A stretch of DNA of 64,000 bases from Desulforamulus ruminis DSM 2154 (GTDB lineage: Bacteria; Bacillota; Desulfotomaculia; Desulfotomaculales; Desulfotomaculaceae), in NCBI RefSeq assembly GCF_000215085.1, contig NC_015589.1:2244120-2308119 (forward strand), read 5' to 3'. A model generated the notes under the pieces. It saw nothing but the letters and a program-made list of their open reading frames with translations, did no database searches and was not told the DNA's origin. Below, one piece after another: positions 14,297-23,349 of this stretch (positions are counted from its first letter, which is position 1; the number at the start of each line of letters is the position of its first letter). The position numbers and the translations under genes are program-made.

Positions 14297-15754
14297 TTAA
14301 AAATACAAATCTCTTTCCCCGTTCTCAATTTGTATCAGTCGATCTTCCGTTATTTTTCTAATTTGATCGCTTCTAATCTCGGCCAAGTGGTTTTGGATTG
14401 TCCGTTCACCCGCTGCTTTCGTTTCGGGACCGGCGTAGTCTATCAGGTACTCCTTAAAAGTTAAAATGGCGTTAGGTTGGCAAACATTCTGTATTTCACC
14501 GGATTTAGCCAGGGGCATAAATCTGTCCCCGGTCCTTCCCTTACGATAACAAGCAGTACAGTAGCTTGGAATATAACCCGATTCGCAGATGCGGCGAATG
14601 ATCTGATCCGGGGTGCGATGGTCTGCCACTTCAAACTGTGCATCATCCTCGTCTGCAGCGGTCGTAATGCCTTTTTTAATATTCTCCAGTTGTTTTTTAT
14701 AGCCACCGATTCCTACACAAGAACCGGCACTCATTTGTGAAATTCCAAGGTCAATGATTTCATCACGGAAGTTAGGCTCTTCCCGGGTGGAAATAATGAG
14801 CCCGGTATAAGGAACGGCCAGACGCATAACCGCCACGATTTTCTTAAATTGATCATCACTTACTAAGTAAGGAAAGGTTTCTAAATTGACGCCTTCAGCT
14901 TCCCTCATCCGCGGGAAGGAAAGAGTATGCGGGCCTACTCCGAATCTCTCCTCTAAATGTAAAACGCCCAACATAAGTGCCACTACTTCATAGCGGTAGT
15001 CATAGAGGCCAAAGAGTACCCCCATACCGACATCATCAATACCGCCTTTCATGGCTCGGTCCATGGCGGTAGTGTGCCAATCATAATCCCGCTTTGGTCC
15101 GGAGGGGTGCATTTGGGCGTAGGTCTCCCGGTGGAAGGTTTCTTGGAACAGAATATACGTACCAATACCCGCTTCTTTCAGTTGGCGGTATTCTTCAACG
15201 GTTGTTGCCGCAATCTGAACATTTATTCTGCGAATGGCGCCATTGTCCTTTGTCGTCTCATAGATGGTTTTCATTGCCTCCAGCACATACTCAATGGGAG
15301 TCTTTTTGGGGTCCTCCCCCATATCCAACATTAAACGTTTGTGACCAAGCTCCTCAAGGGCTATTACCTCTTCCCGTATTTCTTCCATGGTTAACTTTTT
15401 CCTGGTAATTTTATTGGAACAACGATAGCCGCAGTATACACAGTTGTTTACACAGTGGTCACTCAGGTAAAGAGGGGCGAAAAGTACCAATCTTTTCCCG
15501 TAAATCTTTTGTTTAATCTCTAAAGCGGCGGCAAACATCTTCTCTAACAATTCTTCATCCTCAATCTGAATTAATGCTGCAACTTCTTCCGGATTAAGGC
15601 CCTTGGCTGTTCTGGCTTTTTCAATAATGGCTTCTAACTCAACTTTTGAAAAATTTCTTCCCTGTTCAAGTAATGAAATAATTTTTCCATGGTTAATAAA
15701 AGTCGCCTCTTCATGTTGTTGTTTTCTTAGCTCCACCCAGGACTCCGCCATCAT
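14297..15754 (-). CDS. hydG: [FeFe]-hydrogenase maturase HydG
   Basis: A 485-residue radical SAM enzyme that splits tyrosine to give the CO and CN ligands of the hydrogenase H-cluster. The SAM cluster motif CVNNCVYC (C-x3-C-x2-C) is at about residues 96-103. The C-terminal auxiliary-cluster motif C-x2-C-x22-C is seen as CTACYRKGRTGD...CQPN, which separates HydG from ThiH. Length is normal for HydG. ATG with GGAAAGG upstream. It is monocistronic behind a ~170-base leader; hydE, hydF and hydrogenase genes are not in the window. Confidence 0.93.
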   Translation of the reverse strand: MMAESWVELRKQQHEEATFINHGKIISLLEQGRNFSKVELEAIIEKARTAKGLNPEEVAALIQIEDEELLEKMFAAALEIKQKIYGKRLVLFAPLYLSDHCVNNCVYCGYRCSNKITRKKLTMEEIREEVIALEELGHKRLMLDMGEDPKKTPIEYVLEAMKTIYETTKDNGAIRRINVQIAATTVEEYRQLKEAGIGTYILFQETFHRETYAQMHPSGPKRDYDWHTTAMDRAMKGGIDDVGMGVLFGLYDYRYEVVALMLGVLHLEERFGVGPHTLSFPRMREAEGVNLETFPYLVSDDQFKKIVAVMRLAVPYTGLIISTREEPNFRDEIIDLGISQMSAGSCVGIGGYKKQLENIKKGITTAADEDDAQFEVADHRTPDQIIRRICESGYIPSYCTACYRKGRTGDRFMPLAKSGEIQNVCQPNAILTFKEYLIDYAGPETKAAGERTIQNHLAEIRSDQIRKITEDRLIQIENGERDLYF

Positions 15755-15825
15755 ACTAACCTACCTTTCCTACGAAAAATTTGGGATTGGATGTGGCTCC
15801 CTCATTGCTTGTATTCTTTCGTCAA

Positions 15826-15995
15826 AACCAAAAACCCGTCCAGCCGGAAAAAGGCATAGACGGGTAAAGTACACCGAAAAAACACACTGCATAAATACAG
15901 CGTTAACGGTATACCCCTTGGCCTAGGCATCTGCCTTTCTCCTCAGGGAAACCAATCGCGTTGTTATACCCTCATAGCCAGGTATACCCCAGCTA
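15826..15995 (-). promoter_or_regulatory. Structured hydG leader with intrinsic terminator
   Basis: On the minus strand the leader ends in ACCCGTC-loop-GACGGGT followed by TTTTTGG (15826-15865), a terminator upstream of the hydG start. Before it is a conserved-looking block with GGGGTATACC twice and GAGGGTATAAC once, plus GGCAGATGCC and CTGTATTTATGCAG hairpins. This is the usual layout of a transcription-attenuating riboswitch, but I cannot assign a known class. Confidence 0.5.
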
Positions 15996-16222
15996 GTTAG
16001 GTATTTAAGTAATTATAGAAATAATATGGCAGCCTTGTCAAAGCTCAAAAAGCTTAAATACAGTAGATTTGAGTGAAAAATTAAAATTATTTTTTAATAA
16101 CTGCAAATATTTAGCAGGAGCCTATGTTCTTTTTCTCCCCATATCTTCGCAAAAATACACTTTTGTTGTTAAATCTGTTTATTAGCAAAAAACAGAAGCA
16201 CACCAAGTTTATCTTTTCCTCG

Positions 16223-16670: not shown

Positions 16671-16699
16671 ATGTATATTTGTTGGAGGAGCTGTTAGGG

Positions 16700-18559
16700 A
16701 TGAAAAACTGGTGGGTGGATGAGGAAAAGCGGGCCATTCTTTTTACGGTGATTTCCGGGCTTTCCCTTATCGTAAGCTTTTTTCAGCTTTGGAGCCTCCC
16801 CTTTGATGCCGCCTGGGTGGCTATTGTTTTGTGCGGATTACCTATTATCAAAGGGGCTGTGGAAGGTTTGGTGACCGAATTTGATATTAAAGCCGATGTA
16901 CTGGTATCCCTGGCCTTGATTGCCTCGGTGATTATCGGTGAAATCTTTGCCGCGGGCGAAGTGGCCTTTATTATGACCATTGGCGCGCTGCTGGAGGAAC
17001 GGACGGTGGCCAAGGCCAGGGCGGGCATTGAAAGGCTGGTGCACCTCACGCCCCGCACCGCCAGATTGGTGCGGGATGGAGCGGAAACAATTGTCCCCGC
17101 CGAACAGGTACAGGTGGGCGATATCCTGCGGGTGCTGGCCGGAGAGACCATTGCGGTGGATGGGGTAATTATCAGCGGACAAACCTCCATTAATCAAGCG
17201 GTCATGACCGGTGAATCTTTGCCGGTGGATAAGGGCGTGGGTGACGAAGTCTCCAGCGGCACCGTCAATCAATTTGGCACCTTTGAGATGAAGGCAACCA
17301 AGGTTGGCGAGGACAGTTCCCTGCAAAGAATGATTCGTCTGGTGGAATCCGCCGACGCCAACAAGGCCAAAATTGTGGGTCTGGCCGACCGATGGGCCAC
17401 TTGGATTGTTGTGATTGCTTTGCTGGCAGCCCTGGGTACATGGTTTATCACCGATGAAATTATCCGTTCGGTCACCATTCTGGTTGTCTTTTGTCCCTGC
17501 GCGCTGGTGCTGGCAACGCCCACCGCCATCATGGCCGGTATTGGCAACGTTACCAGGCACGGTGTGCTGGTCCGTGAAGGCGACGCCCTGGAACGGCTGG
17601 CCAAGGTAAGCAAAATTGCTTTTGACAAAACCGGTACCCTGACCTACGGCAAGCCGGTGGTTGTGGCGGTGGAAAGCTTTCAGGAAGAGGTTTCTCCGTC
17701 AGCACTGCTGTCCCTCACCGCTTCCGCCGAGCAGCGGTCCGAGCATCCCCTGGGAAAAGCCATTGTGGTCCACGCCAGGACGATACCGGAAATACATAGG
17801 CACGAGCCAAAGGATTTCATACTGCTGGCCGGCCGGGGGGTTCAGGCGGAAATTGACGGCAAAGTTCTGTTGGCAGGAAATCCGGAATTGCTGGCAGACC
17901 ATAAGATTCCTCTGCCCCAGGCCATGATGGACAAGGCAGCCCGTTATCAAGCGGACGGTTTTACCATGATTTACGTGGCCCTAGTAGACAAGGCCGTCGG
18001 TTTTATCGCCCTTTCCGACACCCTGCGCCCGGACGCCGTCCATATGGTAAAAAGCATTCAGGCCATTGGTATTGAACCCATCCTGCTTACCGGGGACCAC
18101 CCTCAGTCTGCTTTCCATATTGCCAAGACGGTGGGGATTAAGAATGTGCACGCTGAATGTCTGCCGGAGGATAAGATGTCCGCCATTGATCACTACCAAA
18201 ACCAAAACCAGATGGTCTGCATGGTGGGTGACGGTATCAATGACGCGCCGGCGCTTAAAAAAGCCTCTGTGGGAATTGCCATGGGCGGCATTGGCAGCGA
18301 CATTGCCGTGGACGCAGCGGACATCGCCCTGGTGGGGGATGATATAAAAGCCATTCCCCATTTGCTGCGCCTGGCCAAAAAGACCATGAAAACCATTCAC
18401 ATTAACTTAGCCCTTTCCCTGCTGCTGAACTTTGCAGCCATTCTTTTGGCCATGACCGGTATTTTGAATCCGGTTTTGGGAGCCCTTGTGCATAATGTCG
18501 GCTCTGTGGGGGTGATTATCAATTCTGCTTTATTATTGAATTGGAGGCAAAGAGAATGA
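16700..18559 (+). CDS. P1B-type heavy-metal-translocating ATPase
   Basis: A 619-residue metal-exporting ATPase without any N-terminal HMA domain. Visible are the membrane site FCPCALVLATP, the phosphorylation loop DKTGTLTYG, SEHPLGKA and [13 protein letters not shown]. The last helix reads HNVGSVGVIINSALLL, unlike the copper-type (MSSxxVxxNAL) or CadA-type (DTGA) ends, so the metal is uncertain; its CsoR-type regulator argues for copper or another soft metal. ATG 16700 is nine bases after GGAGGAG. The stop overlaps the next start by four bases (ATGA). Confidence 0.88.
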   Translation: MKNWWVDEEKRAILFTVISGLSLIVSFFQLWSLPFDAAWVAIVLCGLPIIKGAVEGLVTEFDIKADVLVSLALIASVIIGEIFAAGEVAFIMTIGALLEERTVAKARAGIERLVHLTPRTARLVRDGAETIVPAEQVQVGDILRVLAGETIAVDGVIISGQTSINQAVMTGESLPVDKGVGDEVSSGTVNQFGTFEMKATKVGEDSSLQRMIRLVESADANKAKIVGLADRWATWIVVIALLAALGTWFITDEIIRSVTILVVFCPCALVLATPTAIMAGIGNVTRHGVLVREGDALERLAKVSKIAFDKTGTLTYGKPVVVAVESFQEEVSPSALLSLTASAEQRSEHPLGKAIVVHARTIPEIHRHEPKDFILLAGRGVQAEIDGKVLLAGNPELLADHKIPLPQAMMDKAARYQADGFTMIYVALVDKAVGFIALSDTLRPDAVHMVKSIQAIGIEPILLTGDHPQSAFHIAKTVGIKNVHAECLPEDKMSAIDHYQNQNQMVCMVGDGINDAPALKKASVGIAMGGIGSDIAVDAADIALVGDDIKAIPHLLRLAKKTMKTIHINLALSLLLNFAAILLAMTGILNPVLGALVHNVGSVGVIINSALLLNWRQRE

Positions 18560-22359: not shown

Positions 22360-22547
22360 AAAGTCACTCCTCATCTTATCTGCAATAGACCTCTGATCTT
22401 ATTTTAAAGCCCTATGGAATAAAAATCGTTACAAAGTCGTTACAAATAGGGCTGCGGTTGCTCTTGTCTATCATAATAAACTTTTAGGCTGCTTGACAAA
22501 TCCTTTACTGCTGTGAAATAATCTTATAAAATATATATTTTTGTTTT

Positions 22548-22632
22548 CTAGGGTTCCGCGATAAAATTATCGGACTGGTCCAAGAGAAAACACACAGCCT
22601 AGCTGTGACACGGAGGGACAAAAGCCCGGGAG
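22548..22632 (+). ncRNA. Guanidine-I (ykkC) riboswitch
   Basis: All conserved blocks of the ykkC aptamer are readable in order: CTAGGGTTCCG, GGACTGGTCC, AAGAGAAAACACAC, ACGGAGGGACAAAAGCCCGG and GAG. It sits before two SMR transporter genes, the standard guanidinium-export target, and its 3' end overlaps a terminator, so guanidine should switch on read-through. TTGACA at 22493-22498 is a likely -35. The rest of 22360-22547 is AT-rich. Confidence 0.95.
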
Positions 22633-22669
22633 ATATCAGTGATGATATCCCCGGGCTTATTTATTTTTT
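22622..22669 (+). terminator. Riboswitch-controlled terminator
   Basis: AAGCCCGGG-GATATC and GATATC-CCCGGGCTT form a long perfect stem followed by ATTTATTTTTT. The 5' arm uses the last conserved bases of the guanidine aptamer, so ligand binding and termination exclude each other. Confidence 0.92.
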
Positions 22670-22687: not shown

Positions 22688-23032
22688 ATGACTTTCCAGT
22701 GGTTAAAAGTGTTCATTGGAGCATTTTTTGAAGTGTTTTGGGTTATAGGGCTCAAACACGCCGATAATCTCTGGACCTGGCTGGGTACCGCCATGGCTGT
22801 CTCACTCAGCTTTTATTTCATGATTATGGCGGGCCGAAAATTACCGGTAGGTACGGTATATGCCGTCTTCGTGGGCCTGGGAACAGCCGGAACGGTTCTT
22901 AGCGAAATTCTTTTCTTTGGTGAGCCCTTTAACTGGATCAAACTGTCCTTGATCCTTTTATTGCTGGCGGGGGTTATTGGATTGAAGCTTGTAACCGGGG
23001 AAAAAGAAAGCAGCCTGCAGGGAGGTGCTTAA
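22688..23032 (+). CDS. SMR-family guanidinium exporter subunit
   Basis: A 114-residue small multidrug resistance protein with four transmembrane helices. The essential membrane glutamate is in helix 1 ([15 protein letters not shown]15), with the Gdx/SugE-like E-V-x-W signature. It is the first of two tandem SMR genes under a guanidine-I riboswitch, like the paired ykkC/ykkD (gdnCD) of Bacillus, which act as a heterodimer that exchanges guanidinium for protons. AAGGAGG precedes the ATG. Confidence 0.9.
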
Positions 23033-23034
23033 AA

Positions 23035-23349
23035 ATGTCCTGGTTTTATTTGCTTTTGGCAGGTATTTTTGAAATGTGCGGTGTGGCTATGATCAATAAA
23101 TTGCATCGGGATGGCAATTGGCAGGCAGTTGTTTTATTGCTCTCGGGTTTTGGTGCAAGCTTCTTATTCCTGACCTTGGCCATGAAAACCCTGCCCATGG
23201 GTATCGCTTACGCTGTCTGGACGGGTCTCGGTGCCGCCGGCGGAGCTATCCTTGGTATGATATTCTACGGTGAGTCAAAGGATCGATCCAGAATCTTTTT
23301 TATCTCGGTGATTCTTGGCGCCGTTATGGGTTTAAAGCTGGTTTCATAA
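23035..23349 (+). CDS. SMR-family guanidinium exporter subunit, partner
   Basis: A 104-residue four-helix SMR protein with the key glutamate in LLAGIFEMCGVAMIN (about E13) and the family's PMGIAYAVWTGLGAAGG helix 3 segment. It starts two bases after the first subunit's stop, with GGAGG inside the preceding gene's end. Likely heterodimer partner of that protein. Confidence 0.9.
   Translation: MSWFYLLLAGIFEMCGVAMINKLHRDGNWQAVVLLLSGFGASFLFLTLAMKTLPMGIAYAVWTGLGAAGGAILGMIFYGESKDRSRIFFISVILGAVMGLKLVS

Follow-up and report, generated by a model that had tools for sequence, protein, structure and literature searches.

In PyrR-type regulatory systems, the first gene of the operon encodes an RNA-binding regulator. 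The Bacillus pyr leaders controlled by PyrR contain an antiterminator and a sensor hairpin that exclude one another, the regulator gene is located first in the operon, and trans leaders are found before transporters. Guanidine-II is a tandem-hairpin riboswitch, built of small repeated hairpins with internal pseudo-symmetry. For [FeFe]-hydrogenase maturation, no RNA regulator was found in the open-licence literature that we searched, and the word hydrogenase is absent from the main text of the motif and riboswitch papers and the attenuator survey that we examined. In Clostridium thermocellum, Rex acts on a TM1266-like gene and on hydG (PMC8457756).

Here we analysed a leader located before hydG in Desulforamulus ruminis DSM 2154. 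The stretch of DNA that was analysed, hereafter the window, comprises 64,000 nucleotides of a genome of one contig and 3,969,014 bases (G000); all coordinates are window positions, and the leader occupies 16006-15830 of the minus strand. A preliminary description had proposed a riboswitch-like leader that attenuates transcription of an H-cluster maturase gene and belongs to no established class. In the Rfam scan that it suggested, the leader fell into no Rfam 15 family at the gathering threshold and, together with the literature search, this agrees with the latter point. The sole Rfam 15 match in the window was Guanidine-I, away from the leader, the sole match among 20 leader loci was a tRNA outside the leader, and permissive scans of the window and the leaders returned below-threshold matches alone. 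Nor was a T-box leader indicated, as none of the Rfam T-box models produced a match. The leader belongs to a broad, unrecorded attenuator family for H-cluster maturation, larger than the preliminary description claimed.

The hydG leader and its second genomic copy

The hydG gene, encoding the [FeFe]-hydrogenase H-cluster radical SAM maturase (TIGR03955, 648.7 bits against a cut-off of 312), is located at 14297..15754 (-) behind a ribosome binding site that is probable from its sequence (15764..15771, -), and is one of two in the genome, the other being at G000:1662922. Upstream of the leader is a sigma-70-type promoter, TTGACA-18-TATAAT, at 16041-16012 (-), which matches at 12 of 12 positions. 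Given this perfect promoter, the transcript should begin near 16005 and take in the whole block. The element itself extends from about 16006, slightly beyond the 15995 given previously. The preliminary description had named a transcript start downstream of the hairpin as the case that would count against it; the predicted start is upstream. The conserved sensor part of the leader (15904..16006, -), which is matched by the covariance models R1 and R2 introduced below, scored 104.9 bits (E 9.5e-22) with R2, of which it is a training sequence. The predicted fold of the block reached -67.1 kcal/mol, compared with -52.4 +/- 4.1 for shuffled sequences (z -3.6), and none of 200 shuffles was as good.

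All of the sequence words singled out earlier are present on the minus strand. The word GGGGTATACC occurs at 15990-15981 and 15917-15908 (-) as an exact direct repeat (D7), and GAGGGTATAAC occurs at 15973-15963 (-). The two copies of GGGGTATACC are not equivalent: the second, comprising the 3' strand of the P4 hairpin and what follows, is conserved, whereas the first belongs to hairpin P2, in a stretch that varies and reads differently in other copies of the leader. The claim that no peptide is encoded between the leader and hydG held for open reading frames of at least 80 amino acids but not for shorter ones, as three minus-strand frames of 21-42 amino acids overlap the 3' half of the leader. 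The 42-amino-acid frame (15802-15930, -) has its ATG at 15930, inside P4, carries AGGAG before this ATG, and overlaps the terminator. The start codons of all three are absent from the second leader copy described below, and therefore these frames look incidental.

Divergent from hydG are genes for a CsoR-family repressor (PF02583; 16299-16571, +) and a heavy-metal P-type ATPase (16679-18559, +). The Guanidine-I riboswitch, at 22537-22634 (+; 87.6 bits), precedes an SMR/SugE-like pair (22688-23029 and 23035-23346, +), which is an ordinary known arrangement.

A search of the D. ruminis genome with the leader DNA revealed one further site, which precedes the other hydG gene by about 4 kb. This second leader precedes a TM1266 gene (TIGR03959, 110.5 bits), an AspA-like lyase, and then HydF, HydE and HydG, of which HydF and HydE were named from sequence and position. 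Both copies have hairpin 1, the ACAA linker and the core CCCTGAGGAGAAAGG..GCCTNGGCCAAGGGG, and their terminators are similar; the copies diverge inside the stems and at the first GGGGTATACC. R2 matched solely these two leaders in the genome. Two lower-scoring TM1266 paralogues are located at G000:C1:3381516 and 2765915. The hydG leader is a member of a regulon centred on TM1266-hyd operons, a relationship that the preliminary description had not seen.

Secondary structure, terminator and antiterminator

The 5' portion of the leader forms hairpin 1 (15967..16003, -), in which P1 (16003-15999 with 15971-15967) and P2 (15995-15987 with 15982-15975) are separated by an R.A internal loop (CCUAAC..GAGGG); among 60 sequences, double changes were found in three of the five P1 pairs and in all eight P2 pairs. 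P3 (15950..15962, -), a small and variable hairpin that separates hairpin 1 from P4, is the weakest helix, with 77% of cells paired. The core hairpin P4, CCCUGAGG..CCAAGGGG (15914..15948, -), was delineated by alignment and conservation and consists of an outer stem (15948-15945/15917-15914), a tandem G.A/A.A element (15944-15943 and 15919-15918), a middle stem (15942-15941/15921-15920) and an inner stem (15936-15933/15928-15925), all on the minus strand. An extra hairpin at 15884..15903 (-) is particular to the window copy and absent from the second. P5 (15869..15914, -) pairs GUAUACC (15914-15908) with GGUGUAC (15875-15869) and is present in both of the predicted states described below.

P4 has the consensus CCCUGMG..RAGGG..CCUG..CAAGGGG and is a pseudo-symmetric hairpin carrying two CCUGA/RAGGG modules. 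In its minimal versions it is nearly a self-repeat, as in CCUGA-CGC-AAGGG-loop-CCUGA-GCG-AAGGG (L208) and CCUGA-CUUA-GAGGG-loop-CCUGA-UAAG-GAGGGG (L153). These patterns suggest a geometry of two facing modules, each of CCU/AGG plus tandem G.A pairs, and hairpin 1 holds one further module of this kind. Tandem copies of P4 were found by model at L151 and by eye at L154 and L165.

We examined covariation in an alignment (A6) of 60 chosen leaders, from which near-duplicates, P4-only loci, two antisense rows of the alignment A5 (L094 +, L109 +) and L129 were omitted. Standard pairs occupied 88.1% of pair cells, and double-sided changes were present in 24 of 28 pairs (301 cells), counts that lean towards structure because the alignments A4-A6 were fitted to our own models. 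The covariation score was 0.470, compared with 0.189 for shuffled alignments (0/500) and at most 0.127 when pairing partners were slid. When 52 P4 hairpins were aligned without a model, the score was 0.317 against 0.182 (0/500); in this alignment the numbers of double-change pairs (6; 244/500) and of further pair types (20; 29/500) were unremarkable. The covariation check proposed in the preliminary description therefore finds the leader conserved, with covariation, far beyond close relatives.

That description had also noted several hairpins followed by an intrinsic terminator, and a terminator is indeed recognizable before hydG by sequence and folding: ACCCGUCUAUGCC-UUUUUCC-GGCUGGACGGGU at 15865-15834 with a T run at 15834-15830 (overall 15830..15865, -). 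The 5' half of P4 can base-pair with this terminator through its 5' arm and loop, 15941-15932 being complementary to 15856-15847. Antiterminator strand a (GAGAAAGGCA, 15932..15941, -) is located in the P4 5' strand and strand b (UGCCUUUUUC, 15847..15856, -) in the terminator, on its inner 5' arm and loop; the two are part of the inverted repeat I10, with a duplex of -13.2 kcal/mol, and strand b is also supported by folding. Across the 60 leaders, pairing of the P4 5' half with its own terminator averaged -14.44 kcal/mol, compared with -11.41 (sd 0.36) for permuted partners (0/2000), whereas the P4 3' half gave a non-significant signal (159/2000). Because kinship could inflate such a signal, the permutation test was redone with 20 mutually dissimilar leaders. 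The 5' half again stood out (-13.31 against -10.69 kcal/mol, sd 0.61; 0/5000) and the 3' half was without significant signal (2648/5000). For L036, L042 and L086, the terminators entered into these tests were assigned manually.

Folding of the growing window transcript predicted P4 at 3' ends 15887-15857, the antiterminator at ends 15847-15837, and the terminator together with P4 at end 15832; at 15826 the terminator was retained and the outer strands of P4 were paired otherwise. The minimum-energy fold of the full-length window leader likewise retains the terminator but not P4 itself, which counts against our main reading. Full-length states forced to contain the terminator, the terminator with P4, or the antiterminator had energies of -70.4, -67.4 and -65.2 kcal/mol, respectively. 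These states are within about 5 kcal/mol of each other, such that whatever briefly holds P4 could decide for termination.

A promoter matching at 10 or more of 12 positions was present just upstream of 31 of the 60 leaders (1.5% of shuffles), and a strong terminator within 170 nucleotides in 58 of the 60 (5.7% of shuffles). The leader therefore combines the two features of a transcription attenuator, an intrinsic terminator before the gene and a conserved alternative pairing that disrupts it. The antiterminator covariation, the folding and the conservation of the terminator all argue for the transcription-attenuating leader of an H-cluster maturase gene that had been proposed from the sequence, and the leader is very probably a cis-acting attenuator of this kind. 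The switch probably operates in the OFF direction, with stabilization of P4 leading to termination.

Distribution of the leader and its association with TM1266

A strict core pattern search of 100 genomes, including that of D. ruminis, recovered the two D. ruminis copies alone; this search being too strict, covariance models were adopted. A strict symmetric-core regular expression, of low sensitivity, was found at 26 of 118 leader or TM1266 loci and at none of 20 TM1266-less loci, and a relaxed version was found in 36 of 80 TM1266 upstream regions, against 0.19% of shuffles, and at one of the 20 TM1266-less loci (L175, judged a chance match). The first model, R1, was built from the two D. ruminis copies and matched 17 of 100 genomes (E<=0.1), D. 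ruminis included, among these all eight other members of the genus. R2, built from 20 leaders, matched 34 of 113 genomes of the class, D. ruminis included (E<=0.05), and 18 of 398 genomes in a sample of the phylum (E<=0.01).

Directly downstream of 29 of the 34 class matches at E<=1e-3 is TM1266 or hydG; the remaining five are followed by genes for an SsuABC-like ABC importer (G043, G087, G101) or for an unassigned protein of about 185 amino acids (G002, G005). Seven class matches of R2 fell at E 0.001-0.05, four of them at TM1266 (G041, G079, G040, G059) and the others in G003, G106 and G008. Outside the order, nine of the ten matches in the phylum sample precede TM1266 or hydG, and the tenth (L089) is probably due to chance. 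The leaders before the SsuABC/NrtABC-like importer come from three species of one genus, in another family (L056, L057, L066), where the importer takes the place of hyd genes, and the substrate of the importer may hint at the signal. The protein of about 185 amino acids, which is without a Pfam or NCBIfam match, follows the leaders L058 and L059 (R2 E 2e-11 and 2e-10).

A third model, R3, describes the P4 hairpin and was trained on 52 hairpins, many of them from loci that were later scored. At E<=0.02, it matched 37 of 40 TM1266 upstream regions of the class (20 of 23 among those untrained), some of which hold the P4 hairpin alone, and 15 of 40 from other families (3 of 27 untrained; 4 of 27 at E<=0.1). 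In whole-genome searches, which scored the best 150 or fewer first-look candidates per genome, the best R3 match was at TM1266 in 26 of 30 genomes, and in 10 of the 12 with an untrained hairpin. Among named records, R3 matched upstream of TM1266 at 18 of 80 loci (E<=0.05), at least six of these apparently on contigs already used; these records included Desulfoscipio geothermicus, Desulfotomaculum copahuensis, Fervidicella metallireducens, a Syntrophus MAG and a Lentisphaerae MAG. P4-like sequences were seen by eye in Synergistaceae, WOR-3 and UBP13 records. Some TM1266 genes have no leader directly upstream, for example those of L136, L140, L141, L149, L155 and L163; by eye, the upstream DNA looks coding in all of these except L136.

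Other placements of the hairpin were also observed. At L195 (G149; 1501-2033), a P4-like hairpin (R3 E 2.6e-4) overlaps the apparent ribosome binding site of an ECF substrate component (PF12822), which is located beside the end of a trpS-like gene named by eye; this is a possible translational version of the element. P4-core matches are also located just downstream of TM1266 genes (L214 1776-1809, L224 1781-1814, L228 346-379), where they perhaps control the next gene.

Every one of the 34 R2-positive genomes of the class encodes TM1266, as does every one of the 18 in the phylum sample, among which G278 carries a chance leader match. In ten TM1266-bearing genomes the leader is located apart from TM1266: before hydG in G000, G040, G105, G106 and G285 and, by weak R3 matches, in G149 (E 0.030, 154 nucleotides before hydG) and G284 (E 0.077, 215 nucleotides before hydG), and before the ABC importer in G043, G087 and G101. 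No R3 leader match was found near the hyd genes of 38 HydG-bearing, TM1266-less genomes (sets of 20, 3 and 15), an absence weakened because these are mostly distant lineages, because R3 is of low sensitivity in far families, and because the whole-genome searches scored at most 150 candidates per genome. TM1266-less here signifies no TIGR03959 match at E<=1e-20, or at 1e-3 for G020, G021 and G032; weaker paralogues may exist below these thresholds, as one does in G015. In the set of 20, up to 4 kb upstream of hydG was scanned, shortened by contig ends in three cases, and the best match had an E of 0.2. Where R3 did match a TM1266-less genome at E<=0.3 (0.03-0.26), it did so away from hydG or without a hyd match within 1.5 kb. 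Five of 13 TM1266-bearing genomes (G036, G151, G195, G285, G378) gave no R3 match at either TM1266 or hyd genes, although R2 does see a leader in G036 and G285. The regulon thus includes the gene of a putative regulator, which every R2-positive genome carries, a pattern confounded by common history and by model sensitivity.

The TM1266 family (TIGR03959, PF21699), whose member is the first gene behind the second leader, is named "putative regulator", and a structure of this family, PDB 2nzc, was deposited as an "uncharacterized protein"; the available portions of the literature searched give no function or target. An AlphaFold2 model of TM1266 (pLDDT 93.8) matched 2nzc, its relative from Thermotoga (Z 15.4), then the regulatory domain with which NikR binds nickel (3bkt; Z 13.4, rmsd 1.5, 78 aligned) and ACT domains (Z 11.3). 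These were the best of the listed fold matches, among which PyrR, HutP and TRAP do not appear. The model thus predicts a beta-alpha-beta-beta-alpha-beta domain like the C-terminal domain of NikR. No DNA-binding domain was matched by Pfam or NCBIfam profiles and, judging from the model, TM1266 is a sensor-type domain without a recognised DNA-binding part. In 31 aligned members, a GRMG(I/V/L)PY motif is mostly conserved and is usually followed by basic residues.

Candidate readers of the attenuator

Together, these observations suggest a mechanism in which hairpin 1 (P1/P2) would form in the nascent leader along with the pseudo-symmetric P4, whose 5' strand could alternatively pair with the 5' arm of the terminator to form an antiterminator; as this strand would serve both structures, P4 and the antiterminator should be mutually exclusive. 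When P4 is held, the terminator would form and hydG, or the TM1266-hyd operon, would be off; when it is not, RNA polymerase would read through. We propose that the small NikR/ACT-like TM1266 protein, in a signal-loaded form, might hold P4 in the manner of PyrR, the signal presumably being something tied to H-cluster assembly or supply. Since its gene is often the first of the regulated operon, TM1266 would then be an autoregulator. From the gene linkage, we consider it an even chance that TM1266 is the P4-holding factor and sensor, and the reading as a whole, an attenuator of an H-cluster maturation regulon with TM1266 as its candidate reader, appears to us evenly balanced as well. The association between TM1266 and the leader could also reflect common operon history.

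The same attenuator might instead be a riboswitch in which P4, with or without hairpin 1, binds a small molecule or ion directly through the repeated CCUGA/RAGGG modules as binding pockets, TM1266 being merely co-regulated. We consider this a serious alternative, of somewhat less than even probability. The strong conservation of the unpaired tandem-G.A modules and the tandem hairpin copies are in its favor, as are the leaders before the SsuABC-like importer in three species of one genus and the P4 core that stands alone before the ECF substrate-specific component in G149, since control of transporter genes would be just as expected of a riboswitch that senses a small molecule. On the other hand, no Rfam relative was found, nor any leader near the hyd genes of the 38 HydG-bearing genomes that lack TM1266, which distance may explain. 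A more specific version, which we regard as unlikely, is a new riboswitch class whose paired modules bind an H-cluster-specific compound and so meter assembly of the organometallic core; this could be, for example, a HydG product or precursor (an Fe-CO-CN synthon, cyanide or CO) or an imported building block. Of the riboswitch-like leader proposed originally, the conserved, covarying aptamer-like structure and the expression platform stand, but a TM1266-bound leader fits at least as well. The candidate ligands named there (SAM-, tyrosine-, metal- or cofactor-related) gained no support from the present analysis, nor did it speak against them. We slightly prefer TM1266 over direct ligand binding as the sensor, and the evidence does not separate the two.

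The anatomy of the switch does not itself name its reader, which could be neither TM1266 nor a direct ligand but another trans factor, such as an unrelated RNA-binding protein, an sRNA or a translating ribosome. The 42-amino-acid frame that begins inside P4 of the window copy would suit the last of these, but the absence of the short-frame start codons from the second copy and the linkage of TM1266 genes to the leader across many families make such a reader improbable. It is also conceivable that GGGGTATACC and similar words are DNA operators for the neighboring CsoR-type repressor and that the hairpins are incidental, given that the CsoR-family and heavy-metal ATPase genes adjoin the leader and that AGGGTATA/GGGGTATA words occur before both. 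We rejected this highly improbable explanation because other genomes carry the element ahead of different genes, because it follows the promoter and because its stems covary as RNA; furthermore, the first GGGGTATACC is not conserved.

Under the preferred reading, with TM1266 as candidate reader, the TM1266 family gains a precise candidate role. The leaders appear to reveal a widespread, RNA-based layer in the control of [FeFe]-hydrogenase maturation, and either outcome would be new, be it a riboswitch whose ligand relates to H-cluster chemistry or a sensor of the NikR/ACT type that binds RNA. Such a system would also give a handle on hydrogenase output in anaerobes. In the available part of its description, Rex (PMC8457756) is a DNA-binding redox repressor for which no leader RNA is mentioned; as with the leader, the genes that receive the regulatory input are a TM1266-like gene and hydG. 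The hydG leader resembles guanidine-II in its small repeated, pseudo-symmetric hairpins, but differs in that its conserved modules are internal CCUGA/RAGGG loops and in that it has no Rfam match. It resembles the PyrR-controlled pyr leaders in its mutually exclusive antiterminator and sensor hairpin, in having TM1266 often as the first gene, and in the presence of leaders before transporters. Unlike PyrR, TM1266 has a NikR/ACT fold, and the targets are H-cluster maturases; the sequences of the hydG and pyr leaders were compared through Rfam alone.
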